From a virus: DNA of 22,608 nt. Under the pieces are notes generated by a model, which saw only the letters and a program-made list of their open reading frames with translations, was not told where the DNA came from and did no database searches. Of this stretch, positions 1-21,691 are shown one piece after another (position 1 is the first letter of the stretch; the number at the start of each line of letters is the position of its first letter). The position numbers were made by a program, and so were the translations under genes. Location: the IMG/VR virus record IMGVR_UViG_3300007734_000483, positions 1 to 22,608 of that record; one strand, written 5' to 3'.

Positions 1-11
1 GAGGTGCAGGA

Positions 12-543: not shown

Positions 544-903
544 TTACTTTAGGTTTTTGAGTTTGTAAATGGTGTGTAAATACGTGTCGGATAAATCATC
601 CAACAAATTGCCCAAAGCATCAACGCCCTGAGACAGTTCCATGCGATTTGCTTGAATGAAATCAGCGTCAGATTGAAGTTGAGCGATGATATCAAGCCCG
701 GGGACGATTGCAGGGGCTGGAATGTTGCCGGAAATAAGTTCAAACCGGCCCTGATACGATTCCACAAACGAATCCAGTTTTTCGATGACCTCATCATAAA
801 ATTCTCCGAGGCTCATGTGTTGGGAAAACGACTGGGATCTCCAGTGCGTGACGTGGGCAATATTTCGCGTATAAAAAACGCGAGCAATTAGAGGTTCGAT
901 CAT
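544..903 (-). CDS. Dps/ferritin-like protein of the DUF5856 type
   Basis: A 119-residue, mostly helical protein. Residues 16-55 read AHVTHW, then SFSQHMSLGEFYDEVIEKLDSF and VESYQGRF. This has the layout of the first long helix of Dps-like proteins, where a His-Trp pair is followed by a His and an acidic F/Y-x-x-[DE] stretch. Phage proteins of family DUF5856 look very similar, which is my basis for the call; no search was run. Whether it binds metal is unknown. It is the last gene before the terminator and starts 10 nt after its upstream neighbour. No Shine-Dalgarno site is visible. Instead CTGACAA lies 14 nt before ATG, matching a motif seen at five other starts in the window. Confidence 0.6.
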   Translation of the reverse strand: MIEPLIARVFYTRNIAHVTHWRSQSFSQHMSLGEFYDEVIEKLDSFVESYQGRFELISGNIPAPAIVPGLDIIAQLQSDADFIQANRMELSQGVDALGNLLDDLSDTYLHTIYKLKNLK

Positions 904-913
904 ATATTAATGG

Positions 914-1135
914 CTAGTTGTCAGGTGAATCCGTTTCTTCTAAGTCATCTGGATAATCGGAATCTTTGTAGTATTTTTGAATTTGATACAGGCGAGCAAA
1001 CACGTTGCCAACTCCATCTGTCCAATGTTCTGTGGCTTCGGTATCTGGATCGTACCGAGTGACAAAAATTTGTACCGTGTCGAAGAATTCTCCAAGAAGA
1101 TTGATTGCCTGACGTATGCGTTGTTCTTCTGTCAT
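914..1135 (-). CDS. Small acidic protein, unknown
   Basis: A 73-residue acidic protein, probably soluble, with an aromatic middle (FFDTVQIFVTRYD) and a very acidic end (DLEETDSPDN). I recognise no family. Its start codon overlaps the stop of the upstream HTH gene as ATGA (1132-1135), which supports translation by coupling. It sits in the accessory block between the phosphoesterase and the terminator. Confidence 0.6.
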   Translation of the reverse strand: MTEEQRIRQAINLLGEFFDTVQIFVTRYDPDTEATEHWTDGVGNVFARLYQIQKYYKDSDYPDDLEETDSPDN

Positions 1136-1380
1136 TGCATTTTGTAGTGCATTGATGGGCGGCCCCCGCTGCGAGGTTTGAAACGCCGCCGTTCAATTTT
1201 CTTGTCCCGCAACTTGTCCTGCAAACTAGTGCGCGAACACTTGGTAAGCTCGATGATTTCATTGATTGAGTACCAACCATCTGGAGCGCATTCCTGCCGC
1301 AACTCATCGCGCAACCGCTCCACCCAATCGGTCAAATTGGAAGATGGAATGTCCCTGATTTTGTCTCTTTGGCTAGCCAT
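1132..1380 (-). CDS. Small helix-turn-helix DNA-binding protein
   Basis: An 82-residue protein from ATG 1380 (MASQRDK). Residues 37-66 (GWYSINEIIELTKCSRTSLQDKLRDKKIER) look like a helix-turn-helix: a short helix SINEIIELT, a turn at KCS, and a recognition helix RTSLQDKLRDK. The stretch after it is very basic (RRRFKPRSGGRP). The first 49 nt overlap the 3' end of the upstream phosphoesterase. A longer reading from 1431 is possible, but it would overlap by 100 nt and has no better start. It could be a transcription factor made late, or a small DNA-binding structural or packaging factor; the sequence does not decide. Confidence 0.62.
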   Translation of the reverse strand: MASQRDKIRDIPSSNLTDWVERLRDELRQECAPDGWYSINEIIELTKCSRTSLQDKLRDKKIERRRFKPRSGGRPSMHYKMQ

Positions 1381-2075
1381 ATTTGAGTCTCTGTGTCTGT
1401 GTATTCGCCCCATGCAAATCCACGACTCCACGAACTTGTGGCCCGCCTGTGGGCGGCGTAGTGGGCCTGCTCTACGTCACCAAGCCACCCCAGACAATAG
1501 CCTGTTGGGTGCGCTCTATTCCTGCCCTCTGCCTGTGCAACGCGGTGAAGGTGAGCGATTAGGACTTTGGTTGCTGTTCCGCTACATACTGCCTCGGCGT
1601 GATCTCGAACAGCTTGTTCGTTAGCCATGTATCCATGCCCGAGGAGGGTGTCACCGAGTTGCCGCCACCCTTTGTCGAATGAATATGGGACGATTTCGCA
1701 TTTAAGCCTCTTGGCGCGATCCGTGATCTCTGAGTAAATACGCGACGCCAGACCGCTGACTAAAGCCCGTGGTGATGCCATTAGTGTGTGCAAACGGTGT
1801 TCATGGTTTCCGAGCATCCACAGTTTGGGTTCTAGCTGCGAAATAAACGCTAAACCGTCGTGGATGTCGCCTGATGGGTCTTCAGACTCATCTGATCCTG
1901 CTGCTCCTGCGCGAAATGCTGCAAGGTCAATGGCATCGCCTAAGTGAGCCACGAAATCAGGTTTCCAACGCCGTTTAAACGCCAGAACTTGCTTGAGAAG
2001 CGATTGATCGGCTAGGTGGCCGTGCGAACAGCCAACCGCAAGGAATCGCCGCCATTTGCGGGTTATGTTAGCCAT
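1332..2075 (-). CDS. Calcineurin-like metallophosphoesterase
   Basis: A 247-residue protein with the metal-binding blocks of the metallophosphoesterase superfamily in order: GCSHGH (15-20), LGD (45-47), GNHEHR (89-94), GHGY (146-149) and AHLH (174-177). D47, N90, H91, H147, H175 and H177 match the usual ligands. The first block has serine where the family usually has the Asp of DxH (S17-H18-G19-H20). Known members hydrolyse phosphomono- or diesters with two metal ions; the substrate here is unknown. Start ATG 2075 is preceded by AGGTGGAG with an 11-nt gap and overlaps the upstream membrane-protein stop by 8 nt. It follows the lysis genes, so it may be an accessory gene active late in infection. 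Confidence 0.85.
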   Translation of the reverse strand: MANITRKWRRFLAVGCSHGHLADQSLLKQVLAFKRRWKPDFVAHLGDAIDLAAFRAGAAGSDESEDPSGDIHDGLAFISQLEPKLWMLGNHEHRLHTLMASPRALVSGLASRIYSEITDRAKRLKCEIVPYSFDKGWRQLGDTLLGHGYMANEQAVRDHAEAVCSGTATKVLIAHLHRVAQAEGRNRAHPTGYCLGWLGDVEQAHYAAHRRATSSWSRGFAWGEYTDTETQIWLAKETKSGTFHLPI

Positions 2076-2424
2076 TGGCTTTCTTGCTCCACCTAACAGG
2101 CTTTTTGCGCGGCAACTCTAAAGGTTTACTTAACAGTTGCTTTGGCGCAATAAACTCCGAGTAGTGCCAGTGCGCTCCCAAAAGGAATGTCATAGATATT
2201 CCGAAATTGGTTAGGATTTCGCTCGGCGCCGGAGTTGAAAACGTCAACAGATTCCAGCAACTCCCAGCCATCAGCGTGGACAAGGCCAACTTGCCAGCAA
2301 TCGCTCGGAATTTGTCTTTGTGAATTGGCGAATCTGGACGACCAAAAACGAAAATCACGATTGCTATAATCGTGACTACGTTAATCGAATTAGTGATTGC
2401 GTTTAGAACGGTTGGGAAGCTCAT
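2068..2424 (-). CDS. Small membrane protein, possible lysis accessory
   Basis: A 118-residue protein with three hydrophobic segments near residues 10-28, 43-62 and 70-86, and a basic C-terminal tail (RKKPVRWSKKANG). ATG 2424 is chosen because GGAG lies 9 nt before it; upstream ATG 2433 abuts that GGAG and TTG 2439 has no site. The start lies 35 nt inside the 3' end of the preceding gene. The position, directly after the endolysin and two other membrane proteins, suggests a holin, antiholin or related lysis factor. No specific family is recognised. Confidence 0.62.
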   Translation of the reverse strand: MSFPTVLNAITNSINVVTIIAIVIFVFGRPDSPIHKDKFRAIAGKLALSTLMAGSCWNLLTFSTPAPSEILTNFGISMTFLLGAHWHYSEFIAPKQLLSKPLELPRKKPVRWSKKANG

Positions 2425-2704
2425 TGTTTGCATCTCCAATCAATTTTGAGGCAAAATATTCGACTGCCCGAAGTCCGGCAAACCCAAGTAAAAAGGCGAT
2501 TGCATAGCCACTATCGTTTGGGTCAAGTTTAGTGATTTTGAGGACAATCGGGGTCATGTAGTTTGCCGATGCTGCACCACCAACGATGGAAAGCGTTGTC
2601 TGCCCAATTGTTGCTGCTGCGCGTTTGGTCGTCATCAACACCGCACCAAATAGCCCGGCAACTAAAAATCCCACGCGAATACCAATGCTTTCAAGGTCGA
2701 TCAT
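2390..2704 (-). CDS. Holin-like small membrane protein
   Basis: A 104-residue protein with three hydrophobic stretches near residues 10-25, 34-56 and 67-82, and a basic tail (NRSKRNH). ATG 2704 is chosen because it forms an ATGA overlap with the stop of the preceding gene (2701-2704). The open frame extends further upstream but only through the neighbour's coding sequence. Size, membrane segments, charged tail and position next to the muramidase fit a holin or holin partner. Which of the three adjacent membrane proteins makes the lethal pore cannot be told from sequence. Confidence 0.65.
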   Translation of the reverse strand: MIDLESIGIRVGFLVAGLFGAVLMTTKRAAATIGQTTLSIVGGAASANYMTPIVLKITKLDPNDSGYAIAFLLGFAGLRAVEYFASKLIGDANNELPNRSKRNH

Positions 2705-3180
2705 TTTGTTGGCGCTTGTTGTTGGTGAGACGCTCCGAAATAGAATGAAATAACGCATCCCCATGCTGTACTCAATGCTCCTAAAAGAAGAGTCAACCCC
2801 GGGTTGTCCCAGAGCTTCAAGTCGCCAGTCATTAGCCCGACTAGAATCCCGAAAAATCCAACTGTCACAACGCATGCCAATGCTGCCGGAGTCCACGATC
2901 CAGTTGCGGACTGCATTTGCCTCGCGCTATCGCGGTCTTGCATTTCGATTTTTGCAAGTTCGACGCCCATTTCCTTTAACTTCAATTCTAGCTCGGCATC
3001 AGCCTTTTTAATCGCCGCCAACTGCTCGGCTGTGAGCGTGTTCTTTTGGAGTGCATTTGTGACTGCATCAACCGTTTTCTCTCCACCTAGGATATCTCCG
3101 AGTGCCTGCGCTGCGATGCCTCCTAACGGGCCTCCAAGCAAGGTTCCAACCGTTGGCGCAATCTTTTTAAGCCAATCCAT
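2701..3180 (-). CDS. Probable holin with amphipathic N-terminal region
   Basis: A 159-residue protein. It opens with a glycine-rich hydrophobic stretch (residues 9-33) and continues with a charged helical part (51-90, including AIKKADAELELKLKEMG and DRDSARQMQ). It ends with two membrane segments near 97-118 and 127-150. This layout resembles phage holins of the gene-transfer-agent/3TM type, in which a charged helix with a DRDSAR-like motif precedes the membrane pair; this is family knowledge, not a search result. ATG 3180 has the strongest ribosome site of the lysis block (AAAAGGAG, 7 nt away). It overlaps the endolysin end by 14 nt, so holin output may be set independently of the endolysin. 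Confidence 0.7.
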   Translation of the reverse strand: MDWLKKIAPTVGTLLGGPLGGIAAQALGDILGGEKTVDAVTNALQKNTLTAEQLAAIKKADAELELKLKEMGVELAKIEMQDRDSARQMQSATGSWTPAALACVVTVGFFGILVGLMTGDLKLWDNPGLTLLLGALSTAWGCVISFYFGASHQQQAPTK

Positions 3181-3712
3181 TTGAAAACTCCTTTTTAAGG
3201 TCTTGCGTTCTGTTAAGCCAGCCTCGCAGGAATTTCGCCATTGCAGGCTTCCGTTGAGCGAGTTCTTTGTAAAAATCTTCGCGGGCGTGAACAACTGACA
3301 ACGCCGCCACTTCAGCGCCAACGTCAACAATCCATTCGCCAACTGCTGCCGATGTATTCGGCCCCCATGCGCCATCCACTGCACTGCCTGCAAGCCGTTG
3401 GAAAAAGCGCGTTGTCTGCCCCTTGCCGACATTCACAGCGCTATCGAATGCCACGAGATTCACCGGCCACGGCAGCACGTCGCAGCCGAAATCAAGCCAG
3501 TAATAGGCCGAGTAAATATCGCCCGCTTCCTCGACTGTAAGCCGTGCGACTTCTGGCCCGTGCGTTCTGGCGTCGAGTCCAAATTTGGTGACGCCGCCGG
3601 GATCATCTGGATCGTTCTCAGCAATCGCGAAATCGTAATCCCCATGGTGGCCTTTTTCAAACACGGTTTCCCAGCGGAGTACGAAATCGAGGGCACGTTG
3701 GAAGTCGCTCAT
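3167..3712 (-). CDS. Endolysin, GH108-type muramidase
   Basis: A 181-residue peptidoglycan hydrolase. The N-terminal domain has the GH108 signature NDPDDPGGVTKFGLDART (33-50), preceded by F10-V-L-R-W-E15, where E15 aligns with the catalytic glutamate of the usual E-G-G-x motif. The second half (about 80-175, LPWPVNLVAFDSAVNVG and VDGAWGPNT) matches the PG_binding_3 domain that accompanies GH108. There is no signal peptide, so export would depend on the neighbouring holin-like proteins. ATG 3712 overlaps the previous stop as ATGA. Oddity: the segment between E15 and NDPDDPGG is longer than in the compact E-GG-[FY]-xNDPxDPGG form and is rich in His and Asp (EKGHHGDYDFAIAE). Confidence 0.87.
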   Translation of the reverse strand: MSDFQRALDFVLRWETVFEKGHHGDYDFAIAENDPDDPGGVTKFGLDARTHGPEVARLTVEEAGDIYSAYYWLDFGCDVLPWPVNLVAFDSAVNVGKGQTTRFFQRLAGSAVDGAWGPNTSAAVGEWIVDVGAEVAALSVVHAREDFYKELAQRKPAMAKFLRGWLNRTQDLKKEFSNGLA

Positions 3713-4494
3713 TGGGTGGGGAATGGAAACGAGGGCGTGTAGTTGTCTGTGTAACGGCAAACGCCTACGGTGACTCGGATTTCGTCGTTAAAAAAAGTGT
3801 TCGCTGTTGCGCCTCCGGTGCGCGAATAAAAAGCACTCCTAAACGAGCTTACAGAAGTTGAATCGGTAAATGAAACAACGAGCGAGCCGTTGAAGAACAA
3901 GCGAAGCAAATTTGCAGCGTCCCGAGTAAATGCAAAATGGTTCCAAGCGTCTTTGATAAATGGAGCAAAATCAACGACTGAACCCAACACTAAATATCTC
4001 CAATTTGCTCCACCGCTTGGAGATACAAAGCCGCAATTCCCGCCAGCGGTTGAAACCAAGCAGATGTTTTGATTCAAAACGTCGTACGCGGAAGAAATAT
4101 AGACCGAGGATTCAAACGTGAAAACTCCAGCCGTTCCACCGACTTGAGCGCCGGAAATTTGTCCTTGACTAACGCCAGCAGTTGCAAGTGCCGATTTCCC
4201 ACCTCCGGCAGACTGCGCGGAGGAAATTTCCCACCGTGCAGCTGTACAGGTGAAATTTACGCTCCCACCCGCTTTTGCATTTGGAAGCGTTGCATCGACT
4301 GCCGCTCCATCAGTCAACGAGTTGAATCCTTGCAAAAACTGCACCGAACTCCAGAACGGATCCGATGGAGGCACGTATCCAGTGCGGAATCTGCGCACCT
4401 GCGTTGCGTCCCCAGAGTCAATCGAGATGAGCTTTCCAGCGCCCACACGCTTGATCTCAAGCCCATATTGGTCTGGCGTTAGAATCTTTGGCAT
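3709..4494 (-). CDS. LamG-like distal tail or receptor-binding protein
   Basis: A 261-residue protein. Residues about 50-261 form a concanavalin/LamG-like beta-sandwich. The strongest evidence is DAWNHFAFTRDAANLLRLFF (182-201) followed by NG, the common LamG strand-turn, and the closing DEIRVTVGVCRYTDNYTP (237-254). Such domains bind sugars or cell-surface ligands, so a role in host adsorption is likely; this is inference. The N-terminal 45 residues (LEIKRVGAGKLISID) may attach it to the tail. Its ATG shares one base with the preceding stop (TAATG). It is the last structural gene before lysis. Confidence 0.75.
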   Translation of the reverse strand: MPKILTPDQYGLEIKRVGAGKLISIDSGDATQVRRFRTGYVPPSDPFWSSVQFLQGFNSLTDGAAVDATLPNAKAGGSVNFTCTAARWEISSAQSAGGGKSALATAGVSQGQISGAQVGGTAGVFTFESSVYISSAYDVLNQNICLVSTAGGNCGFVSPSGGANWRYLVLGSVVDFAPFIKDAWNHFAFTRDAANLLRLFFNGSLVVSFTDSTSVSSFRSAFYSRTGGATANTFFNDEIRVTVGVCRYTDNYTPSFPFPTQ

Positions 4495-6191: not shown

Positions 6192-6194
6192 AAA

Positions 6195-7277
6195 TTATCC
6201 GAGTGCGATTGCGTATCCGATAGCCATGGCGTTTGTTGGCCTTGCGCTTAGATCGGTTGTCAAATTAGAAATCTTGCTTTGAGCGATTGCCGCTCCTGCG
6301 TCTACGTCACTGTCAAAAAGCAAGCTCGCTGGACTCTGGAACGTGCCGTCAATGACCTTGACAAGCCCACTTCCGCCAACGCTTGGAATCGTCGTGTGAA
6401 TATGGGACGGAGTTGAGTCGCCAAAGTAAACTGTGACCTTGTGGTTGGACGCCGTGGCTTTTGCTAGCAACTCAACATACAAGCGGTCTGTGAGTTGGAC
6501 GGTCGTTTGAGGGATTACCAGTGAGATCCCCGTCTGAATAGGCGTCCCGTTGTTTGCAACCAACGCATCTCCCGAGGTGGCGATCAGCGTTGCTGTCGTA
6601 CCGTCATATTTGTAGATCCTGAGTTGAGCGACAGTAGGTGCTTGGGCGTTGGCATCTCCAGTCATCCACACGTTAAAATCCCAGATACCAGCTGGCCAAG
6701 ACGTAACATCTGGATCTATTGGCGATGACTCAGAGACGAAACCGCAGACTAAATCGTACTGGGACGTTGAAATGTTACCACTAACAAGGGAGGTCTGCGC
6801 TGCCTCTGCAACTCGGCCTAATTGGTGCGGAACCACTGGAGAAGTTGGAAGTCCAGTTGTTGGCGCGTCCGCAGCAGTCCCAAAATTTAGATAATACAGC
6901 AATCCACCTCCTCCAGATCCTCCGCCCTGCATAGTTCCCGCAACCCAGTTTGTCCCATTCCACTGCAACACCTGCCCATTGCTAGGAGACGCCGCAGAAA
7001 CAGGGTTTCCTTGCAGCGCAGTAATTTGAGTGCTGGCAGTTCCAGCTACAGCAACCACATCGCCCGACAACGCACAAAGCTGCTGCGTTCCAAGGCTGCC
7101 AGTTAGTTCTGAAAACGAAGTTGCCCCGCCTGCGCCTTGGATCTCAACAACCCCACTATCCGCGCCCAAGTAAACCTTGCCAGTGGATCGATTAGTGGCG
7201 ATCTCACCGAGGAGTAGACTTGCAGGCGCACCAGCTCCGGGTGCGCTATTAGTACGCGGGATAATTGGGTTAGACAT
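6195..7277 (-). CDS. Tail fibre protein with shared N-terminal attachment domain
   Basis: A 360-residue protein. Residues 1-46 (NPIIPRTNSAPGAGAPASL, then GEIATNRSTGKVYLG) resemble the start of the next upstream fibre (NPIIPKFNSNALS, then GELASNLTSGRLYL). This N-terminal domain is common in phage fibres and probably docks them to the tail. A fibre repeat (LQGNPVSAASPSNGQVLQWN) at 88-107 leads to a Gly-rich hinge (117-125). About 126-296 is a beta-rich domain that may carry the tip function. The end has the fibre-type motif VKVIDGTF and DAGAAIAQSKISNL. The GGAGG used to start it lies inside the last codons of the upstream gene. Confidence 0.8.
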   Translation of the reverse strand: MSNPIIPRTNSAPGAGAPASLLLGEIATNRSTGKVYLGADSGVVEIQGAGGATSFSELTGSLGTQQLCALSGDVVAVAGTASTQITALQGNPVSAASPSNGQVLQWNGTNWVAGTMQGGGSGGGGLLYYLNFGTAADAPTTGLPTSPVVPHQLGRVAEAAQTSLVSGNISTSQYDLVCGFVSESSPIDPDVTSWPAGIWDFNVWMTGDANAQAPTVAQLRIYKYDGTTATLIATSGDALVANNGTPIQTGISLVIPQTTVQLTDRLYVELLAKATASNHKVTVYFGDSTPSHIHTTIPSVGGSGLVKVIDGTFQSPASLLFDSDVDAGAAIAQSKISNLTTDLSARPTNAMAIGYAIALG

Positions 7278-7279
7278 AG

Positions 7280-7296
7280 ACTAATAAGTTCCTCCG
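7280..7296 (-). repeat. 17-nt fibre-junction repeat, copy 2
   Basis: ACTAATAAGTTCCTCCG on the plus strand, identical to 8368-8384. On the minus strand it encodes the last residues GGTY and the TAG stop of the upstream fibre, and its GGAGG is the ribosome binding site of the next fibre gene. Confidence 0.85.
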
Positions 7297-8366
7297 TTGA
7301 ACGTAGTCGATGAACTGGAGGTTGTGATGATCACCGTGTTGTCTGGCGTAAGCGTGCCGTCTTCAGCCACGTTCAATCCAGTGCCTGCGATTACGCCGCC
7401 GAGAGTCGAGGTCGTTGCCGCCTTAACAGACAAATCCCCGCCGAGCGTCACAGCAAGCCCACTGCCTGCAATGATGCCACCAAGTTGAGCCGTCGTCGCT
7501 GCTGGCAGTGTGTAAGTGCCTTGCACTGCGGACAAGCGGCCTGCGCCATCCACAGTAAGGTTGTCTCCAACACTGATCGCTCCAAGGCTTGCGGTCGTAG
7601 CCGCTGGCAACTGCGCAGTGCCAATCTGCGCTGATCCATTGAGCCCTGCGACTCCGTTGATCGCGTTGATCGCAGTCGTAGCAATCGCGCCAACGTCGCT
7701 AGCGGATAGCGTTACGTTGCCGGAGATGGGACTGATATTGTTGACCGAAATGACGTATGCGTCACTCCCGGGGATCTTATCCCACGCCGCCCCATCGAAC
7801 ACCACCAGATCCCCCGTAAGCCAGTCGTTATGGCCGTCTAGTGTGGTGTTTCCGGCCACAGATACCACGTAGTACCAACCTTTAGTGCCTACACCAGACT
7901 GCAACGCTGGGTCGTTAGTGCTAGCGTTCCATGCGCCTTTGTAGGTTAATCCGCCGATCACCGAAGCGGGGATCTGGTCGAGCGAGATTTTGCCCGTATT
8001 GTCGAGCTGAGGAACCAGTCCAGCAACCGCGCCAGTGGTCAAGCAACTTAACTCAGCGGTGCCGATAGATGGCAACTGACTGGAAACTAGCTTTCCAGCA
8101 CCGTTTAGTGATGCAACGCCGTTTGCTGCTCCAAGCTGGCCAACGCCAAGAGCCCCGATGGAAGTGGTTGTGATGGAGACATCTCCAGTCCCACCGTTCA
8201 CGGATTTGACTGGCACGACATCAGCGACAGTCCCGTCGTGCAGTTTTAGGTACAGTCTGCCGCTGGTAAGATTTGACGCCAACTCACCACTGGCAAGTGC
8301 AAGTGCTGAAGGTGCCGCCGTGGACAGCGCGTTGCTGTTAAATTTTGGAATAATGGGATTGGCCAT
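7281..8366 (-). CDS. Tail fibre protein with repeated LGG modules
   Basis: A 361-residue fibre. Residues 1-50 form the attachment domain shared with the following gene. A VNGGTGDVSITTTSIGALG motif (57-75) and its second form VNNISPISGNVTLSASDVGA (208-227) are common fibre linkers. Residues 139-198 (GLTYKGAWNAST, GWYYVVSVAG, DWLTGDLVVFDGAAW) match a module known from many phage fibres. Three tandem copies of AATT-x2-LG-x3-GxxLxV-xxxGxLS follow at 253-280, 287-314 and 316-340. The protein ends FNGGTY. The start (ATG 8366) uses a GGAGG embedded in the previous gene's end. It is probably part of the host-recognition apparatus. Confidence 0.82.
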   Translation of the reverse strand: MANPIIPKFNSNALSTAAPSALALASGELASNLTSGRLYLKLHDGTVADVVPVKSVNGGTGDVSITTTSIGALGVGQLGAANGVASLNGAGKLVSSQLPSIGTAELSCLTTGAVAGLVPQLDNTGKISLDQIPASVIGGLTYKGAWNASTNDPALQSGVGTKGWYYVVSVAGNTTLDGHNDWLTGDLVVFDGAAWDKIPGSDAYVISVNNISPISGNVTLSASDVGAIATTAINAINGVAGLNGSAQIGTAQLPAATTASLGAISVGDNLTVDGAGRLSAVQGTYTLPAATTAQLGGIIAGSGLAVTLGGDLSVKAATTSTLGGVIAGTGLNVAEDGTLTPDNTVIITTSSSSTTFNGGTY

Positions 8367-8367
8367 G

Positions 8368-8384
8368 ACTAATAAGTTCCTCCG
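8368..8384 (-). repeat. 17-nt fibre-junction repeat, copy 1
   Basis: A perfect copy of 7280-7296. It encodes GGTY-stop of the collagen-like fibre and supplies GGAGG 12 nt before the next ATG. Similarity continues less perfectly into the next gene's first codons (NPIIP). Confidence 0.85.
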
Positions 8385-8638
8385 AGTATTTGTTCGTTGT
8401 TTGTTAAGACTGGGTTCCCGTTCAGAGTACAGGTTCCAGTCAAGACTGCATCGGTTCCACTGATCGCCCCCACATCAGTTGCGGTTAGCGCAACAATAGG
8501 GCCGGTGTATCCGTTGATTTCAGTGATCCCCCCAGCCGCGCCGGGTTCTCCCTGCGGGCCTTGTGGTCCTTGTGGCCCGGGAATCCCCTCAATAATGTCA
8601 ACAGTGATGATCTGCTGAGTGTCGTTACAGCAACTCAT
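8369..8638 (-). CDS. Short collagen-like fibre protein
   Basis: An 89-residue protein with six Gly-X-Y triplets (18-35, GIPGPQGPQGPQGEPGAA), the signature of a collagen-like trimeric rod. It is followed by INGYTGPIVALTATDVGAIS (41-60), the same linker type seen twice in the next fibre, and it ends ILGGTY. Two cysteines stand at positions 3 and 4. ATG 8638 overlaps the previous stop as ATGA and has a strong GAGGGAGGG about 10 nt upstream. It may be a short fibre in its own right or the shaft of a fibre whose tip comes from the neighbouring genes. Confidence 0.75.
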   Translation of the reverse strand: MSCCNDTQQIITVDIIEGIPGPQGPQGPQGEPGAAGGITEINGYTGPIVALTATDVGAISGTDAVLTGTCTLNGNPVLTNNEQILGGTY

Positions 8639-8943: not shown

Positions 8944-8958
8944 GCTCTTGGCTGATTG

Positions 8959-9189
8959 TCAACTGTCTCCCCATCCAATCCCTATAGGGTCGCAACATCC
9001 TGAGATTCGATTGATATGAGCAGGGAATGCACGTTCTGTTACCACAACACTTCCAACCTCAAATCTGTTGAGCGGACACGGAACCTTGTTTGATTTGACC
9101 AACAACTTCCCACCACACCGCGCAACCAATTCGCACTTTGCACAAACCTGCAAGCGTTCCTCTACAAGCCATGCTGGAACTAACTCCAT
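8959..9189 (-). CDS. Small Cys-rich, probable zinc-binding protein
   Basis: A 76-residue protein. C16-x2-C19, C25 and C38 (VCAKCE, RCGG, VPCPLNRF) could bind one zinc ion. Two further cysteines occur together at 65-66. Small proteins of this form are often found among phage tail-fibre genes, but their role is unknown to me. It overlaps the upstream gene by 10 nt, starts at ATG 9189 and has only a weak TGAG upstream. Confidence 0.6.
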   Translation of the reverse strand: MELVPAWLVEERLQVCAKCELVARCGGKLLVKSNKVPCPLNRFEVGSVVVTERAFPAHINRISGCCDPIGIGWGDS

Positions 9190-10363: not shown

Positions 10364-10364
10364 G

Positions 10365-11006: not shown

Positions 11007-11012
11007 AATTGG

Positions 11013-13312: not shown

Positions 13313-13532
13313 CTTCCTCTGAGAAATTGTCAACAATCGCAAGAAGTTCTCGGAATTGACAGTGAGCCGTTTTTGTCGGTTTCACCGTCCAAGCCCCGTT
13401 TGACCACAGTGCCGCATGATAATATTCAAGCGCACGGGCAAACGGAAGTTCCCACAAAATAAAATGTTCTGACCAACCAGTTTCTTTGGCCAAGGAGAAG
13501 ACCATAGCCGGTCCCCAGCTCGGCCCAATTAG
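13305..13532 (-). CDS. Frameshift extension (GT part) of tail assembly chaperone
   Basis: A 75-codon segment open in the -1 frame relative to the chaperone gene. It begins at the slippery site and continues LIGPSWGPA-MVFSLAKETGWS to SEEDG. The body (WELPFARALEYYHAALW) is a typical second-frame T domain that contacts the tape measure in lambda-like phages. It could in principle start independently at ATG 13505, but no ribosome site is seen there and the frame is open back to the slippery site. The frameshift fusion would be 206 residues long. Confidence 0.78.
   Translation of the reverse strand, partial: LIGPSWGPAMVFSLAKETGWSEHFILWELPFARALEYYHAALWSNGAWTVKPTKTAHCQFRELLAIVDNFSEEDG
13506..13520 (-). 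other. Possible frameshift-stimulating hairpin
   Basis: AGCTGG-GGA-CCGGCT forms a 6-bp stem (one G-U) with a 3-nt loop. It starts 11 nt downstream of the slippery heptamer, slightly further than the usual 5-9 nt. It is short, so its role is uncertain. Confidence 0.35.
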
Positions 13533-14370: not shown

Positions 14371-14392
14371 GTGATGTTCAGTTATTTTTCTG

Positions 14393-14707
14393 TTACGATG
14401 CCGAAGGGTATGCTACCCCAGAGTATTCGTATCCTTCCCAGTCGTCGTTGGTATACGAATGTTTCACCGAAGTGATTATGACTTTTCCAGAAGTTCCAGT
14501 AGGTGCCCCATCACTTGACCCAATCGACACCGTCGGAGTCCCTTTCCCCTTCACAGAAAAAGAATAGGAACTGTCAATGACCCTTGCTTCTGAAAATGCT
14601 CCAGTCGAATCAATTAAAACTTTTGTGTCGGCCTTCATTTCAAGGTCAACACTTTCCACGATTGTCCCAGACGCTGATACTAAAGTAATTCCAATTTGGC
14701 AGGACAT
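14393..14707 (-). CDS. Tail tube-like protein, paralogue of the next gene upstream
   Basis: A 104-residue beta-rich protein. It shares a pattern with the gene directly upstream: ASG[TV][IV]VE, a K-[GT]-KG turn, then NDD[WF] and a closing [VI]AY plus Ser. In size and position it fits a small tail tube or tube-cap protein. It starts 2 nt after the upstream stop with no ribosome site, so coupling is likely. Which of the pair forms the tube is open. Confidence 0.6.
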   Translation of the reverse strand: MSCQIGITLVSASGTIVESVDLEMKADTKVLIDSTGAFSEARVIDSSYSFSVKGKGTPTVSIGSSDGAPTGTSGKVIITSVKHSYTNDDWEGYEYSGVAYPSAS

Positions 14708-14709
14708 AA

Positions 14710-15018
14710 TTATGAAAGGGTTGAATACGCGATCCCAGTGACTTCAGACGTTGGAAAGTCATCGTTGCTTTGGCTTACCTTTGATCCGGTAATCGTTAGA
14801 CCGGAAAACACCTTTACGACAACAGGAACAAGGTCGGTGTCTCCCTTGGTTTTTACGTTCACTGTCCTTGTGACCAATTTTTTTGGACACGCTTCAACCA
14901 CAACGCCGGAAGCATTTTTAATGGTCAATGTGTCCACTGCATACTCTTCACTAGCCTCCTGCACATAACCAGACGGTGCAGTAAGCCCAAAAGTTCCAAT
15001 AATTCCAAAGGCAGGCAT
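14710..15018 (-). CDS. Tail tube-like protein
   Basis: A 102-residue beta-rich protein (FGIIGTFGLTAPSGYVQEAS, then ASGVVVE and VNVKTKGDTDLVPVVVKVFS), similar in pattern to the following gene. It comes right after the tail terminator, the normal place of the major tail protein, so this copy is my first choice for the tube. TTGACAA lies 12 nt before ATG, and its TGA is the stop of the tail terminator. No Shine-Dalgarno site is visible. Confidence 0.62.
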   Translation of the reverse strand: MPAFGIIGTFGLTAPSGYVQEASEEYAVDTLTIKNASGVVVEACPKKLVTRTVNVKTKGDTDLVPVVVKVFSGLTITGSKVSQSNDDFPTSEVTGIAYSTLS

Positions 15019-15033
15019 ATCTTTAAAGAGTTG

Positions 15034-15411
15034 TCAACTCGCCGGTGTAAACCCGACGATGAAGTTCATGGTTGAGATCCAGTGTCGCTCGTTTCTTGAT
15101 GTATCAAAATTCTGATAAACAGTTCCGCACATCTTCACCGGTTCCGTTAACGCTAAAGATTTCACAAAAGTTCCAACCTCGTCCGTAAACGAAGCATGCG
15201 ATTGTGGTGTTGAGTCGTCGGCCTGAGTTGCCACACTGATTGTCAGCGTTCCTCGGTAAAGCGGGCCACCCACAACTGCATCCGATTTCATCTCCACCAT
15301 GATTGCAGGGAGCTGGATATCTACATTCTCCATTGAAGCCCCAACAAAAACATTTGGAAACTCCTCTCGCAAAGCAGCAGCAATCGCGTTTACCAAAAGC
15401 AAGTCGATCAT
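15034..15411 (-). CDS. Tail terminator protein
   Basis: A 125-residue alpha/beta protein. An N-terminal helix (LLLVNAIAAALREEFPNV) is followed by strands (LPAIMVEMKSDAVVGG, LYRGTLTISVATQAD) and a helix (SHASFTDEVGTFVKSL), the fold order of tail terminator/completion proteins (gpU/DUF3168 group). These cap the tube and join it to the head connector. ATG overlaps the upstream stop as ATGA, with AGGTGA 5 nt before it. Confidence 0.75.
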   Translation of the reverse strand: MIDLLLVNAIAAALREEFPNVFVGASMENVDIQLPAIMVEMKSDAVVGGPLYRGTLTISVATQADDSTPQSHASFTDEVGTFVKSLALTEPVKMCGTVYQNFDTSRNERHWISTMNFIVGFTPAS

Positions 15412-15707
15412 CGGTTCACCTCATCTAAGTGAAGGGTCCAAGAAATTTGATCTTCGTCAACCGCAACAACTCGCCGAACTTTCCCGCCAATCGTAATCCG
15501 AGATCCCATCATCGGTTGTGGGAACAAATCCTTTGAGACAACTACCTGAGCAGTCAGTGACACGTCGTAACCACCGACTTGAATCGTTTGTTTGTCCGCC
15601 AATATGTTCACGATCCCAGTGTACGATTGCCCGTTATACGAAAACTGCTGCCCCATGGTTGAGACAGCAGATTTCAAATACGTAGAACTGAACTCGCTAA
15701 AATTCAC
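15408..15707 (-). CDS. Head-tail connector, FII-like
   Basis: A 99-residue protein. After a short N-terminal helix, residues 19-99 are mainly strands (GQQFSYNGQSYTGIVNIL, DVSLTAQVVVSKDLF, GSRITIGGKVRRVVAVDED, SWTLHLDE), the pattern of lambda FII-type head-tail joining proteins. The start is GTG 15707, overlapping the upstream stop as GTGA. AAGGA abuts the start, so ATG at residue 18 is an alternative. Confidence 0.68.
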   Translation of the reverse strand: MNFSEFSSTYLKSAVSTMGQQFSYNGQSYTGIVNILADKQTIQVGGYDVSLTAQVVVSKDLFPQPMMGSRITIGGKVRRVVAVDEDQISWTLHLDEVNR

Positions 15708-15904
15708 TCCTTGGATTTCTTTTTTGTGGCCTCCTTGGCCTCAAACCGACGAATGGCGGTTCGTTCGATGAACGAATAAAGTTCAGTCGTGACCGCATTG
15801 CCCGGGCGGTCTAATTCCGCCCGAGCAATTTGACGATCATTCCCGAGATACCGGACTTGGATTTCTCCGGATTCGGATTTTGAGATGGTCAGATGTAGCC
15901 TCAT
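15704..15904 (-). CDS. Small basic protein after the capsid gene, unknown
   Basis: A 66-residue protein with a Lys-rich end (EAKEATKKKSKE). It begins at ATG 15904, one base after the capsid stop (TAACATG), and may be translated by reinitiation. Its position between capsid and connector is where head-completion proteins lie, but no family can be named. Confidence 0.6.
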   Translation of the reverse strand: MRLHLTISKSESGEIQVRYLGNDRQIARAELDRPGNAVTTELYSFIERTAIRRFEAKEATKKKSKE

Positions 15905-15905
15905 G

Positions 15906-16790
15906 TTAAGCGGAGACCAAACGCTGACCAGCAACAGGATTCCCAACTGCAACCCCGTAGATATATGCGAGGTAAACGGTCGCAGACAACGTAGCAACGT
16001 CGATCTGTTCAACAGCCATCACAGACAACCCGGAGATAGGATCAGTGATGATTTCGATGTTCCCGTTCAGCGGAGCATTGGGAAGTGCTTCGCGAGGATC
16101 TTTTGGCACACGACCTGCAAACACGACGGAATCCATTGTTCCTGCAAATCCAGTCAGGTGATCGGTCGTTGGGAGGGAAGGGTATTCAAAGATGTTGGAG
16201 AACCCAGCAACCTGAGAAAGTTCACCGTCAACGATTGGATCGTTGCCCATGACTTTGTAGAAACGATTGCACAGAGGATCTTCTAGCAACAAAGCGTACA
16301 CATCAGGATTCACGACCGCAAAGCGATCCCCGTGATTGCCTCGGCCAATCAAAGCCTTCCGCATGTTTACCAAAGTGGTGTACGAAGGCGTTGCGTCGAG
16401 CGTGTAGTTTGAGAAATTCGATCCCAAGTACAGTGCTGCAACCGAATCGATAATGTCGTTTGCCATCGCTACGGCAATCGGTTCAGCAGACTCTTGAATC
16501 AGATTACGGTCAGTTGCATTCAATTCAGCAGCGGTGAATGAATATCCAACTTGCTTGAATTTGTTCAACGTCACAGGAACGTCTGTATCAACCTTGTTGG
16601 TGATACCAGATCCGAAGTTTCCAACAGCAGGAACCCCGTGAATACGGCTGATTACTTGCTGATTGAGAAGAGCGCCTTGTGGAGCAAGATCTTTCGAGAT
16701 CTTCTTGAGAACAGGACGCTTGGTGAAAACAAGGCTGAGAGCCTCTTGGATGATAAGGGCACTAGATAACGTGCCGAGTGTATTACTCAT
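15906..16790 (-). CDS. Major capsid protein (HK97 fold)
   Basis: A 294-residue protein. The N-terminal part (SSALIIQEALSLVFTKRPVL) is helical. There follow VTLNKFKQVGYSFTAAELNA (about 73-92), a long helix (AEPIAVAMANDIIDSVAALY) and a late segment with a capsid-like A-domain (MDSVVFAGRVPKDPRE, ITDPISGLSVMAVEQIDVAT). The pattern fits capsids of the P22-coat/HK97-fold groups, and the position after protease and scaffold agrees. The start has no Shine-Dalgarno site: the 22 nt upstream are CCCCTACCCTATTAAACTACC-like. This is odd for the most highly made protein and suggests another way of loading ribosomes. Confidence 0.83.
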   Translation of the reverse strand: MSNTLGTLSSALIIQEALSLVFTKRPVLKKISKDLAPQGALLNQQVISRIHGVPAVGNFGSGITNKVDTDVPVTLNKFKQVGYSFTAAELNATDRNLIQESAEPIAVAMANDIIDSVAALYLGSNFSNYTLDATPSYTTLVNMRKALIGRGNHGDRFAVVNPDVYALLLEDPLCNRFYKVMGNDPIVDGELSQVAGFSNIFEYPSLPTTDHLTGFAGTMDSVVFAGRVPKDPREALPNAPLNGNIEIITDPISGLSVMAVEQIDVATLSATVYLAYIYGVAVGNPVAGQRLVSA

Positions 16791-16812
16791 GGTAGTTTAA
16801 TAGGGTAGGGGA

Positions 16813-17229
16813 TTAACGATTCTTCAAAAGATCTTCCATGTTGGCGGCGCGGAATTTTGCGCGAGCAACCGGATCTGTGATTTTAGAAAGCCTTTCACGC
16901 GCAGATTCTTCGACGCTATTGGAAGGTTCCTGCTGAATTGCAACGATATCGACGCTGACACTTGCCAACGCTTCAACGGCTTTTTGATTAGCAAGCGTTT
17001 CAAGCGTTTGAGCGGCTTGTGCTGCATTTGCCAACTGATTTTGAAATTCAGCGTTGGCTTTCTTGAGCAGTTCAACTTCAGCTACTAAAGCATCTCGATC
17101 TGCTAGGATTGCCGAGTGTTGCGCCGCCAGTTCGTTGAATGCTGCCATTTCGGTCTGAAGCCCAGCGACGACTGCCGCTTGAGCGTCAAAAGCCTCTAGC
17201 GCATCCGCCAAGGTTGTGGGTCTTTCCAT
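16813..17229 (-). CDS. Scaffolding-like coiled-coil protein
   Basis: A 138-residue, Ala/Glu/Gln-rich protein with a predicted coiled coil from about 8 to 85 (LADALEAFDAQAAVVAGL to LANQKAVEALA) and a basic end (DPVARAKFRAANMEDLLKNR). Helical proteins between prohead protease and capsid gene are usually scaffolds, and the basic C-terminus would fit binding to the capsid shell. ATG 17229 is preceded by two copies of TTGACAA, 13 and 5 nt away, and by no Shine-Dalgarno site. Confidence 0.7.
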   Translation of the reverse strand: MERPTTLADALEAFDAQAAVVAGLQTEMAAFNELAAQHSAILADRDALVAEVELLKKANAEFQNQLANAAQAAQTLETLANQKAVEALASVSVDIVAIQQEPSNSVEESARERLSKITDPVARAKFRAANMEDLLKNR

Positions 17230-17249
17230 ATTCTTTGTCAAGTTGTCAA

Positions 17250-18107
17250 CTAAGCACCTAGCTTTGCAAGGAAAGCGGTATACGCTTCTTCCTCTGTCCC
17301 TATTTCGTCGCACAGGTTGTTTTGCATGCCTCTTGCAGCAAAAAACGCTTGTCCACGCATGGCAGAGTCTGGAACCGATCTATTCCTAAGCACATTGCCT
17401 TTAAATGCTTCAAACGCATCCTGACAATATTCTTGAAGTGCTGCCCTTTGATCTGGTGTCAAGCTAGGGCCGTGCATTGCAGATTTCAGATCGCCTTCGG
17501 CGTTTGTTATCGGATCGAACCGCATACCTTCCATATCCCAGCACCGAGAAGAATCGATCCAAGGAATAAGAACCCCAATTGATCCAATGGTTGCTGATTG
17601 GGATGCCCAAATCCATTTTGCAGACGCCGCAATATTGTAAGCAGCAGAGCAGCAGTATGCCTTTGCATAAGCCATCACCGGCACCCCTGCGTTTTGCACC
17701 GCTTCAACTGCTTCAGCGTTCCCAGCAACCGTTCCCCCAGAAGAATCCATGCAAAGGAAAATACCCCTAACACCAGAGCCAACTGCCATTTTGATTTCTT
17801 GGATGATGTCTTCATAATCAGTAGCGCAGGATTTTTCGATTTTTGACAGTCCCTGTCCAAGTGTTCCCTGCACATAAATGTGCGCCACGTTGTTGGGATC
17901 AATTTCCATTTTCGGGCGCATGTTGAACATGCCCATGAGTGAACTCATGTCGTCTTCATCATCCCCATTTCCGTCTGCCACAGGGCGAGAGGGAAGGGGA
18001 TTGCGGAGTAACTTGTTTCCAATCACCGCACGAACGGCGGCAAGACCTTGCGGAGTGATAAACCAAGGCGATCCGTCAACTAATTCAATTACTCGCTGAA
18101 GTCTCAT
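17250..18107 (-). CDS. Prohead protease, S49 (SppA/lambda C) family
   Basis: A 285-residue protease. The core runs from HIYVQGTLGQ (76-85) through FLCMDSSGGTVAGN (117-130) to YAKAYCCSAAYNIAASA (147-163). S154 is the predicted nucleophile, and K208 in EGDLKSA is the predicted general base of the Ser-Lys pair. Such enzymes trim the scaffold and portal during capsid maturation. The acidic linker DGNGDDEDD (45-53) separates an N-terminal part. The start overlaps the portal end by 23 nt and has no ribosome site. Confidence 0.88.
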   Translation of the reverse strand: MRLQRVIELVDGSPWFITPQGLAAVRAVIGNKLLRNPLPSRPVADGNGDDEDDMSSLMGMFNMRPKMEIDPNNVAHIYVQGTLGQGLSKIEKSCATDYEDIIQEIKMAVGSGVRGIFLCMDSSGGTVAGNAEAVEAVQNAGVPVMAYAKAYCCSAAYNIAASAKWIWASQSATIGSIGVLIPWIDSSRCWDMEGMRFDPITNAEGDLKSAMHGPSLTPDQRAALQEYCQDAFEAFKGNVLRNRSVPDSAMRGQAFFAARGMQNNLCDEIGTEEEAYTAFLAKLGA

Positions 18108-19629
18108 TATTATTTTGCGGTTGAGCGTTTACGTCTTCTCCAATCACGTTTCCATTTGGAGTAATCATGCGGAACCAAGATTCCGGTAGACCGGATCGTT
18201 TCATGCGCTCCATGATATTGATACCCTCGGCTTCACGTTCGTCCAAATGCTTGTCAAGAGACTTGCCGCCTTCACCAAGGATATCCGTCATCGACCGCAA
18301 CCCAGTTCGATAGGCATCGAGGGCGTCTCCGTTCGCGTAAGATTGATCTGCCGTCAAATAGGCAGGCATCGAAAAATCCCAGCGTAAAAATCCGCCGAGC
18401 TGACTCCCCGGGAATTGAGGTATAAACCCAGACTTAATAGCTTTTGAAACAGCCCATCCAACTCTTCTTCGAGCAGTCAGTTTCATCAACTGCTGCCGAT
18501 CTTGAATCGTCCGATTGACCTTTTGGATTACCATCCGAACATTCGCCCCAGTGTTACCTTTAGGGTCGTAGTAAAACTCAGGAGGCATCCCAGCCGAAAG
18601 CATGGAATTCCGAATCAACCGATCCATCAGATTCTCGGTAGATTGAGATGGGGTGTTGTTCACCAACTGCTCTAACTTTGCTCCTGAGTTTGCTCGGAAA
18701 TATCGGATTGTCCCACCAGACAGCAACTCAGTATGCAACATCGGATCTCCTTGAACCGTTGTTGGGTCTGTGAACATCGAAGCGATGTTGTCTGGATCTG
18801 CAAACCCGTTTTCGTTGGTTTCGATCAACCCAATGGACGAAGCAATCTGCACCGCTTGTTTTGAGTAGTTTTGAATCAGGAGGCAGTCTTTTAAATCTAG
18901 GATGGCAGACGTGAAAGCAGGGAAGCCCCTATACTGATCTGGGGTCTTCGGTTCGCGGAGATAATCCATCGACTGAGCTGGGATATCCCGATCAAATTCC
19001 GGCGACTTTCCAAGAACACGAAACGCAATTACACGACCAACATCATTGAGAATTAAACCGTTGTTCTGGGCGTATCCCTTAAACGGTCCCGATTTAACGA
19101 TCTCTTCGTTGTCCCTCGATCCGATTGCATGCCACGGGATTTGTTGCAACTGAGGAAACCCAGACCCGTTGCTCGATTCGGTGTACAGAGAACCGATGTC
19201 TCCATCTCGATCAATACCAATCGAATCCAAGTACAATCCGGTATGCCAATCGTATCCGTTTGCGTAGCAGTTTGGAAACCATTGACCGATCAGCCAGTCT
19301 TCAGCCTGTTGCGCCCATTTTTTGACACGCGCATCCGATTGATCACCGGCAAATTGGGGCATCCATGCTTTGCCAATGGTAAATAGGGCTTTGTCCTCAA
19401 TCGCCCCAGCAACCGGTCCAAACGACCAAAAAAGCCTGTTCGAGGATGATACAATGGTCTTCCACTCGGATCTGGTAACGTCTTTACTGAGATTTCCAGT
19501 GACGTTGACCTGATAAGGTCGATGCGCCCAGTACCCGCCGGGAATCAACCTTTGGTTCTGAAGGAAATTGTATTCCGAACGAGGTTCGTTTGCTTTGTTA
19601 AACAACTTACCGAGAAGTTTCTTGATCAT
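18085..19629 (-). CDS. Portal protein, lambda B type
   Basis: A 514-residue protein from ATG 19629, chosen because it overlaps the previous stop as ATGA. Features typical of lambda-family portals include FWSFGPVAGAIEDKALFTIG, the DIGSLYTE and IPWHAIGS strands, GFPAFTSAILDLKDCLLIQN in the long helix region and TGANVRMVIQKVNRTIQDRQ near the end. The dodecameric ring would form the DNA entry vertex and bind the terminase. Length is close to that of lambda B (533). Confidence 0.88.
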   Translation of the reverse strand: MIKKLLGKLFNKANEPRSEYNFLQNQRLIPGGYWAHRPYQVNVTGNLSKDVTRSEWKTIVSSSNRLFWSFGPVAGAIEDKALFTIGKAWMPQFAGDQSDARVKKWAQQAEDWLIGQWFPNCYANGYDWHTGLYLDSIGIDRDGDIGSLYTESSNGSGFPQLQQIPWHAIGSRDNEEIVKSGPFKGYAQNNGLILNDVGRVIAFRVLGKSPEFDRDIPAQSMDYLREPKTPDQYRGFPAFTSAILDLKDCLLIQNYSKQAVQIASSIGLIETNENGFADPDNIASMFTDPTTVQGDPMLHTELLSGGTIRYFRANSGAKLEQLVNNTPSQSTENLMDRLIRNSMLSAGMPPEFYYDPKGNTGANVRMVIQKVNRTIQDRQQLMKLTARRRVGWAVSKAIKSGFIPQFPGSQLGGFLRWDFSMPAYLTADQSYANGDALDAYRTGLRSMTDILGEGGKSLDKHLDEREAEGINIMERMKRSGLPESWFRMITPNGNVIGEDVNAQPQNNNETSASN

Positions 19630-19892
19630 TGGATTCGCATGATGGTTCGTTGCATTGGGCGACAAATTCCCTTCATCTTGTAATCCAAGGCCAACTGAGC
19701 CAGATTGGCAATCTCGATAGGGGATAGGGCACTATCCAACTGAATTTCAAAACTTGATCCGTTGACGGTAGATTTTACCAGCGTCCCGCCCAGTGCCATC
19801 GCACTTTCAAACTGAGCATCTCTCAATGCTCGCAATTCCAAAACGTCTCTCTGAATAAATAATTGGAGGACGTGGGCTGATACCTTTACCAT
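19626..19892 (-). CDS. Small protein in the gpW position
   Basis: An 88-residue protein between terminase and portal, where lambda has gpW. The start at ATG 19892 is preferred to TTG 19913, which overlaps the terminase stop. Residues 47-67 (SFEIQLDSALSPIEIANLAQ) and the basic end (RPMQRTIMRIQ) are the clearest features. It may join head and tail like gpW, but similarity is by place and size only. TTGACAA lies 14 nt before ATG and contains the terminase TGA stop. Confidence 0.6.
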   Translation of the reverse strand: MVKVSAHVLQLFIQRDVLELRALRDAQFESAMALGGTLVKSTVNGSSFEIQLDSALSPIEIANLAQLALDYKMKGICRPMQRTIMRIQ

Positions 19893-19909
19893 ACATTTCT
19901 CAATAATTG

Positions 19910-21691
19910 TCAACTAGGTGTTCCTGCCGTATCTTCAATGTCAGGAAGCAGTCGGAAAATTAACGCACAGACAATTTGCATGCACTCAGTATCCCACAGG
20001 TGATTATCTTTTCGAGTACGCACCCATTTCAATTCTGATTTCTTTGTGCGAGGATTCAGTGTCTCGCGTTTTATCTCAGAATTCATCTGCTTTAGGTAGG
20101 CTGGGGAAACATCCCGGGGGAACTCCCACATCGGAGGACCAACCATCCGCAATCGCGCCAAGATGTCTTTAACCCCTTCGTTGCTCCATGAGATCCCCGC
20201 AATCTGGGCTGGGATGTTTGTTCCGGGGCGTTTCACGGTAGGAGCAATCACAAATCGAGGTTCGCTCCAGAAGTGCCGACGTTTATCCTTGTGCGTAAAA
20301 TACGGTTGGCCGGTTCCAAATAACAAATGCCACCCAAACTTGGCCGCCACATCAAAGATTCGACCGTCTCCAGACTCTCCTTTGCCCTCTTGCTCCTTAT
20401 AACGTCCATCAAGGAACGTCATTTTATCTTTCACCTTGTACCGCAACTGCAACGCTCGCAGATCCTGCGCGTTCAATATCTGTCCCTCCCAAAGCAGTTT
20501 CGAGTAACTATTTGAGGAAAACGCCCGAATACATGCCCAGAACGACGCTTCCTGCACGTCCACGGTCATAAAACGCACCCGCTCGTTATCGATTAGTTGT
20601 CCGTCCTTGAAATCCTCCAGAGAATAATCCGAGCTTTCCAACGCCATGGTGGGCAAATCCGCATCCGGCTTCCACATCTGCGCCTGTCGTTTCTGTTTGA
20701 ATTGTTTCAGTGGCTCAATATTTCCCCGTTGTTTTTCGTCCATCGCATTCAGCCACTCGAACACGAGGTTCTTCCATTCGATCCACCAGACTGCCTGTGC
20801 GGTCCATGTCCGCATCCGGTGTCCCTTCAGATAATTTCCGCCGCGCCCGCGGTAACACCCCAGTTTAGACATCTCCCGTCGCGCCCCTGTGGTGTCCTCG
20901 GTTTTCAAACCACACACCGAACACTCGTGGTGAACTGATTTTCCAATCGCATCCCAGTCCCATTCACCTTCCGCTGTTCGGATCTGCTCAAATTTGATAT
21001 CGCTCCACGGGTAATTCGACCAGTTCCCGCATTCTCTGCACTCCGTGCCCCATTCAAATACCTCGGCATTGGCAACTTCTTTTTCCAACTCATGCCCAGC
21101 ATCGAACCCTTGGCTAACCAGCAGGGTGAGGGAAGCATACCGATCATGGTGCCGCTTCTTCAGTTCGCCAATCATTCCGTCTTTCCATCTCCAAACCTCG
21201 TCCCCAATGCAGTACCGAAGACTTTTTTCCTGCAAACTCGATAGGTTTGCCCCCACCAGAAACAAGGGAGCATGCCCGAAAAATATTGCAGTCTTTCGTT
21301 TCTGATGCCGGTCGGTCGGAAACAACCTTGCAACCGGTTCGCACAGGTTAAACATCGGAATCAATCGTTCCTCGGCGAACTCTTTACATAGATCGTCGGT
21401 CTGACCCACCAACATTGCAGGCCCCGGCCTTGCGGCAATCATAAAGCACAAACTCGTCTCCAGCAGGGTCGTTTTCCCACCTCCAGTAGGTGCAATCACA
21501 ATTTCACACCGGATGTGGTCATCTCCAATGTCCTCGTAGATTTCGTTCAGCCATGGAGACGTGTCTCGAATGAATTGGCTGGATCGAGCAGAATGAGGGA
21601 TTCTGACGTGCTTTTCAAGCCAGTCCACTGTGGAACCCTTAAACCTTGGCTGGAAGCCAAGCAACAGCCCTTTATGAACCGGATTTTGCAT
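19910..21691 (-). CDS. terL: Terminase large subunit, GpA family
   Basis: A 593-residue packaging motor. Walker A is IAPTGGGKTT (66-75) and Walker B is RYCIGDEV (159-166) with D164 and E165. A four-Cys zinc site is formed by C218-x2-C221 and C257-x2-C260. The nuclease half begins with MTVDVQ (375-380, D378) and continues with FLDGRYKEQ (426-434) and HLWDTE (564-569). These features fit the GpA family of lambda-type terminases, which cut at cos. ATG 21691 is chosen because longer readings run far into the small terminase gene; this start overlaps it by 20 nt. Confidence 0.93.
   Translation of the reverse strand: MQNPVHKGLLLGFQPRFKGSTVDWLEKHVRIPHSARSSQFIRDTSPWLNEIYEDIGDDHIRCEIVIAPTGGGKTTLLETSLCFMIAARPGPAMLVGQTDDLCKEFAEERLIPMFNLCEPVARLFPTDRHQKRKTAIFFGHAPLFLVGANLSSLQEKSLRYCIGDEVWRWKDGMIGELKKRHHDRYASLTLLVSQGFDAGHELEKEVANAEVFEWGTECRECGNWSNYPWSDIKFEQIRTAEGEWDWDAIGKSVHHECSVCGLKTEDTTGARREMSKLGCYRGRGGNYLKGHRMRTWTAQAVWWIEWKNLVFEWLNAMDEKQRGNIEPLKQFKQKRQAQMWKPDADLPTMALESSDYSLEDFKDGQLIDNERVRFMTVDVQEASFWACIRAFSSNSYSKLLWEGQILNAQDLRALQLRYKVKDKMTFLDGRYKEQEGKGESGDGRIFDVAAKFGWHLLFGTGQPYFTHKDKRRHFWSEPRFVIAPTVKRPGTNIPAQIAGISWSNEGVKDILARLRMVGPPMWEFPRDVSPAYLKQMNSEIKRETLNPRTKKSELKWVRTRKDNHLWDTECMQIVCALIFRLLPDIEDTAGTPS

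Follow-up and report, generated by a model that had tools for sequence, protein, structure and literature searches.

The window, which is the whole stretch of 22,608 nt analysed here (IMG/VR virus record IMGVR_UViG_3300007734_000483, positions 1 to 22,608), carries the terminase, portal, head protease, major capsid and tape-measure-like genes of a phage, and several of its genes begin shortly after the word TTGACAA. The closest IMG/VR relative is contig 3300027754_000382 (L002/L037/L273, called L037 below), with about 80% DNA identity to the window phage. The copies of the word and the genes concerned are as follows.

19907..19913, minus strand: TTGACAA, 14 nt before the ATG of gene 19892-19626; its TGA is the stop codon of the terminase gene; kept in L037 and L001
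19626..19892, minus strand: small gene of 88 aa behind this copy, between the terminase and portal genes by position, without family match
17243..17249, minus strand: TTGACAA, 13 nt before the ATG of gene 17229-16813; kept in L037
17235..17241, minus strand: second TTGACAA, 5 nt before the same ATG; not kept in L037 and probably incidental
16813..17229, minus strand: coiled-coil-like gene of 138 aa between the head protease and the capsid, scaffold-like by position
15906..16790, minus strand: major capsid gene, whose uncoupled start lacks the TTGAC signal and follows an A/C-rich, G-poor leader
15031..15037, minus strand: TTGACAA, 12 nt before the ATG of gene 15018-14710; the TGA within it ends the upstream gene
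14710..15018, minus strand: tail-region gene of 102 aa behind this copy
13327..13333, minus strand: TTGACAA, 14 nt before the ATG of gene 13312-12611, within the last part of the upstream coding sequence; kept in L037
12611..13312, minus strand: gene of 233 aa behind this copy, adjoining the tape-measure-like gene
8956..8962, minus strand: TTGACAA, 12 nt before the ATG of gene 8943-8635, with NGC directly before the ATG; its TGA is the upstream stop; kept in L037
8635..8943, minus strand: gene of 102 aa behind this copy
918..924, minus strand: CTGACAA, 14 nt before the ATG of gene 903-544 (DUF5856 / phrog_858); doubtful member

The coordinates and spacings of the six sites in the original prediction match the sequence, and the second copy at 17241-17235 is also present. 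Exact TTGACAA stands 12-14 nt before ATG at five starts, where 0.065 would be expected (35 starts x 3 spacings; Poisson P 9e-9). TTGACA occurs 14 times in total on the minus strand of the window, and no other 7-mer has a fixed spacing at five window starts, apart from overlapping shifts of TTGACAA. The sixth copy, CTGACAA at 924-918, had been counted with the others, and this was not supported. It is doubtful because a single mismatch within bases 1 to 5 is hardly ever seen at that spacing elsewhere and because the orthologous site could not be aligned; it is probably not a member.

Some other features of the window were observed. Two adjacent genes whose N termini are similar (MSNPIIP and MANPIIP) share one leader (cggaggaacttattagtc/t), which has a good Shine-Dalgarno site (7277-7310 and 8366-8400, minus strand); they were apparently duplicated along with it. 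A partial opposite-strand gene with zinc-ribbon-like residues (3-449, plus strand) adjoins the end of the late operon. The only Rfam match in the window is a spurious one to a microRNA family (RF04176) in an AT dinucleotide-rich tract near the contig end (22254-22325).

L037 keeps all five exact sites, with 15 changes in the 65 spacer positions (own count), so that the conservation in related phages on which the original prediction depended was confirmed at about 80% identity. In phages with 42% terminase identity, TTGACAA precedes by 13 nt a gene of similar size (MEDxP...), whose position suggests that it corresponds to window gene 17229. In prophage L041 the motif also stands before a 39.6%-identical homologue of gene 15018-14710, and a similar-looking family (MPANFG...) carries it at 14 of 16 uncoupled starts. 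These relatives revealed that the core is TTGACA rather than TTGACAA. The terminase relatives in sequenced genomes belong mostly to Verrucomicrobiota, so the hosts of the phage group are very probably Verrucomicrobiota. Portal, terminase, protease and tape-measure proteins across the group are only 20-45% identical in many pairs, and therefore the group is old. It is large and divergent, and consists of tailed siphophages and prophages of Verrucomicrobiota with a lambda-like portal, an S49 head protease and a GpA terminase.

A motif-agnostic sample of 80 phage contigs (946 kb, 60% GC) was gathered by the portal protein. The query alignment was built from prophages, including L122 and L125, which had first been noticed via the motif, but the selection was made on portal sequence only. 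Gene starts were taken from a simple home-made caller, and spurious opposite-strand ORFs in GC-rich contigs add noise, which would weaken a start-anchored peak and not create one. On the coding strand, the gap from TTGACA to ATG or GTG was 13 nt in 186 cases and 14 nt in 96, compared with about 5-10 at a typical distance. When 827 de-replicated starts were scanned word by position without supervision, GTTGAC/TTGACA 13 nt before the start came out on top (68 against 2.4 expected, z=42), and the only variants accepted were TTGACG and TTGACT. The word is thus more frequent at the start spacing than at background positions, as the original prediction needed. TTGAC[A/G/T] stands 12-19 nt ahead of 150 of the 827 starts (18%), and of the 46 contigs that reach 10 kb, 43 contain at least three signal starts. 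An earlier survey of the phylum with the pattern GTTGACAAN{12,14}ATG is not relied on, since its word was too long and its control biased.

In full, the signal reads [G]TTGAC[A/G/T], then 13 nt of GC-rich spacer with GC as its last two bases, then ATG or GTG. In the gap-13 class (n=97), G precedes the word at a frequency of 0.66 and C follows it at 0.70; G at -2 reaches 0.86 and C at -1 reaches 0.74, against 0.23 and 0.40 at other starts. The start codons of this class are 65 ATG, 32 GTG and no TTG. The GC at -2,-1 was first noticed in partly selected data and held upon retest with unselected sites. A word at a fixed place is real, as first proposed, but TTGACAA is too long at its 3' end: the core is TTGAC, base 6 is A, then G, then T in frequency and never C, and the earlier description had overlooked the GC directly before the start codon. 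An internally fixed TTGACA-N10-GGC, independent of the ATG, was considered and fits only in part (5 of 23 gap-16/17 sites); at gap 14 the GC moves with the ATG. An obligate spacer hairpin, suggestive by eye and likewise first noticed in partly selected data, was rejected, as a half-swap test at unselected sites gave a weak result (gap-13 sites only, p=0.01-0.04). Divergent gene pairs with 42-51 bp between their starts and two back-to-back TTGAC words were seen at L122:3365-3416, and similar ones in L283, L288, L289, L290, L308, L335, L336, L342 and L352, in several unrelated gene pairs.

The signal is apparently confined to phage genes and is not the bacteria's own. In the Verrucomicrobiota genome G418, prophages L122 and L123/L124 carry it at 15 of 59 starts, compared with none of 347 starts in 400 kb of chromosome (p=5e-14); these prophages were found through motif clusters, so the first count is selected and the second unselected. 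Other host genomes gave near-flat TTGACA-to-start histograms, and both results rule out a host-wide Verrucomicrobiota initiation signal. Across 38 related genomes, genome-wide counts at N{13,15} and N{19,21} were broadly similar, with no general spacing preference. Chromosomal repeats with TTGACA-N13/14-ATG, common to several genomes (G391, G089, G284, G370 and G398; L275-L280), are perhaps promoters or repeat elements; the insertion-like repeats with TTGACA-N13-ATG were rejected as users of the signal, since their ATGs open just 3-38 codons.

The signal was also absent from Verrucomicrobiota phage P8625, Akkermansia phage Moulinsart and the capsid relatives L058-L060, which means that it is a trait of a phage lineage and not of all phages of the phylum. 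In P8625 (L152; near 5448, 10772 and 15594) TTGACA stands about 30 nt before the ATG and is followed by GTATCC..GGATAC inverted repeats before the start. This looks like a promoter plus hairpin recurring at several genes, and it was set aside as a different arrangement.

Signal starts seldom have a Shine-Dalgarno site: 11 of 150 against 122 of 677 other starts in the 80-contig sample (p=8e-4), and 2 of 51 against 69 of 360 in the first set. The motif depends strongly on the junction with the upstream gene. It is found at 40 of 55 same-strand junctions of 15-20 nt (73%) and at 28 of 346 overlapping or abutting, that is coupled, junctions (8%). Within single gene families, the motif occurs at 15/15 uncoupled and 0/7 coupled starts, 14/16 and 0/14, and 6/8 and 0/8; pooled over families, the dependence has a CMH chi-square of 59.6 and an OR of 14.8. 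The S49 protease family is an exception, as its start overlaps the portal gene yet has the motif. The capsid (16790) and 14370 had been named at the outset as starts lacking the word, and this holds beyond the window, since the capsid family and a 151-aa family resembling gene 14370 never carry it. Capsid starts of the group have A/C-rich leaders (10% G against 26% overall). The capsid genes (window 16790; L283-L362) show neither a Shine-Dalgarno site nor TTGAC before the start, possibly a third class of start.

Pairing with 16S rRNA was considered as the means of recognition and rejected, with no complement near the 3' end. The 3' ends of three Verrucomicrobiota 16S rRNAs are GGATCACCTCCTTTCTA, with the normal CCTCC present; TGTCAA is absent from the approximately 1.5 kb of 16S checked, and GTCAA occurs solely about 350 nt upstream of the 3' end. 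As such pairing does not explain the signal, recognition by a protein would be likelier, and the rigid word suggests a protein reader encoded by phage or host. The mRNA-binding protein proposed in the original prediction would be one possible reader.

The original prediction of a shared signal, translational or regulatory, at constant spacing is strongly supported: the signal is start-anchored, conserved, enriched across the group and anticorrelated with Shine-Dalgarno sites and coupling. From this anchoring and conservation, the confinement to phage, the avoidance of Shine-Dalgarno sites and the substitution for coupling, we infer an action at the level of translation. We consider that TTGAC-N14-(A/G)TG is probably, with a good deal of reserve, a sequence-specific non-Shine-Dalgarno translation-start element of a Verrucomicrobiota siphophage and prophage lineage. 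In the mRNA, UUGAC would occupy -19 to -15, the spacer after it would be GC-rich, for the most part rich in C, and end in GC at -2,-1, and the element would allow ribosomes to start at genes which do not inherit them from the upstream gene. Three kinds of start would then occur in these phages. Where genes overlap or abut, coupling would serve the start, in some cases with a Shine-Dalgarno site present; a second kind is uncoupled and carries TTGAC; and a small third kind, which includes the capsid, has a leader rich in A/C and poor in G. A motif present where the start is uncoupled and absent where it is coupled behaves as a ribosome-recruiting signal needed only without coupling.

More tentatively, the phages may possess a start code of their own, in which a phage-encoded protein or a recruited host factor reads UUGAC and brings ribosomes independently of the anti-Shine-Dalgarno sequence, by a route unused by host genes; this further step seems to us somewhat less likely than not. 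Some Verrucomicrobia, including Akkermansia, are listed among organisms with scarce Shine-Dalgarno sites (PMC10783764), which fits a setting where a phage gains from its own start signal. If true, such a code could let the phage favour its messages in low-Shine-Dalgarno hosts.

Several features count against the translation reading. The word has the rigidity of a DNA-binding site, which Shine-Dalgarno sites with their variants do not; it equals the sigma-70 -35 consensus, with the sixth base weakest in both; and GC-rich sequence from -13 to -1 is atypical of efficient translation starts. An ordinary sigma-70 promoter was rejected, as TTGACA is not followed at 15-19 bp by a TATAAT-like hexamer (4/6 or more matches at 0-1% of sites in the unbiased set and 0-3% in the first set). 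A compact phage-specific promoter for leaderless mRNA could instead be proposed, with TTGAC at -19 to -15, a GC/R initiator and transcription from the A or G of the start codon by a phage-modified or phage-encoded RNA polymerase. The -35 consensus word makes it possible, together with the back-to-back motifs at ten divergent-pair loci (about five gene-pair types), which have no space between for a separate promoter and no sigma-70-like promoter within 130 bp. The lack of Shine-Dalgarno sites, the pyrimidine at -1 and purine at +1, the 33% of GTG and the lack of TTG starts also fit leaderless transcripts, though the caller disfavours TTG. But there is no -10-like element, and melting would have to occur in a region of unusually high GC content. 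The distance to the start ranges from 12 to 19 nt, with the GC shifting along with the ATG at gap 14. Motifs stand at most 15-20-nt junctions in long one-strand blocks, in which each gene would hardly have a promoter of its own, and their presence depends on coupling within gene families. On balance we regard this promoter as unlikely.

Less probable again is a site for mRNA processing or regulation, where a sequence-specific endoribonuclease or an RNA-binding repressor or activator would read UUGAC and set 5' ends or the timing of late proteins. A very rigid five-base core, oriented, phage-only and at a fixed distance from starts, would suit such a reader, but the word takes the place of coupling gene by gene, the capsid gene, a main late product, lacks it, and there is no conserved structure, as the weak hairpin result indicates. 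We know of no RNase with a UUGAC site. That the word recurs by chance or composition, or as one upstream region inherited by related genes, can practically be dismissed: the starting point was indeed six sites in one phage with gene starts picked by eye, but the z of the unsupervised scan was obtained on de-replicated starts, the motif stands before unrelated gene families, and the TTGACA histogram is flat on the host chromosome.

The usual accounts of how bacteria start translation invoke pairing with a Shine-Dalgarno site, coupling, a leaderless mRNA or an absence of structure. A phage-only word that is rigid, start-locked and swapped gene by gene for coupling points to either another route, which we favour, or an unusual promoter, and either would be new; no description of such a signal was found in the open-access literature searched. 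The signal also helps to place gene starts more accurately in a phage group that is abundant and mostly uncultured, and it provides a sequence tag for Verrucomicrobiota phages.

Among known systems, the Shine-Dalgarno site is likewise a short start-anchored word at unlinked genes, with flexible spacing around an optimum, and dispensable if the gene is coupled. The phage word differs in lying farther ahead of the start codon (-19 to -15, compared with roughly -13 to -5), in its rigidity and sequence, in not being complementary to the 16S 3' end and in its absence from host genes. With the sigma-70 -35 element it shares the TTGACa consensus and the weakest sixth base, but it has no TATAAT 15-19 nt downstream and its position is locked to the start codon. 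T4 RegB is an endoribonuclease acting at GGAG within Shine-Dalgarno sites; its targets likewise consist of one fixed word in the RNA close to where phage genes start, but the word here is UUGAC. In the leaderless promoters of Deinococcus-Thermus the -10 region adjoins the ORF (PMC12340547), so a promoter-like word lies near the start codon and Shine-Dalgarno sites are lacking, as here, but the phage signal has no -10 box and consists of TTGAC and a GC-rich stretch to the start. The Kozak-like starts of Bacteroidota also permit translation without Shine-Dalgarno sites though the ribosomes retain the anti-Shine-Dalgarno sequence. Those of Flavobacterium johnsoniae involve single-base preferences and low structure at host genes (PMC6847099), whereas the phage signal is a fixed five-base word at phage genes only.
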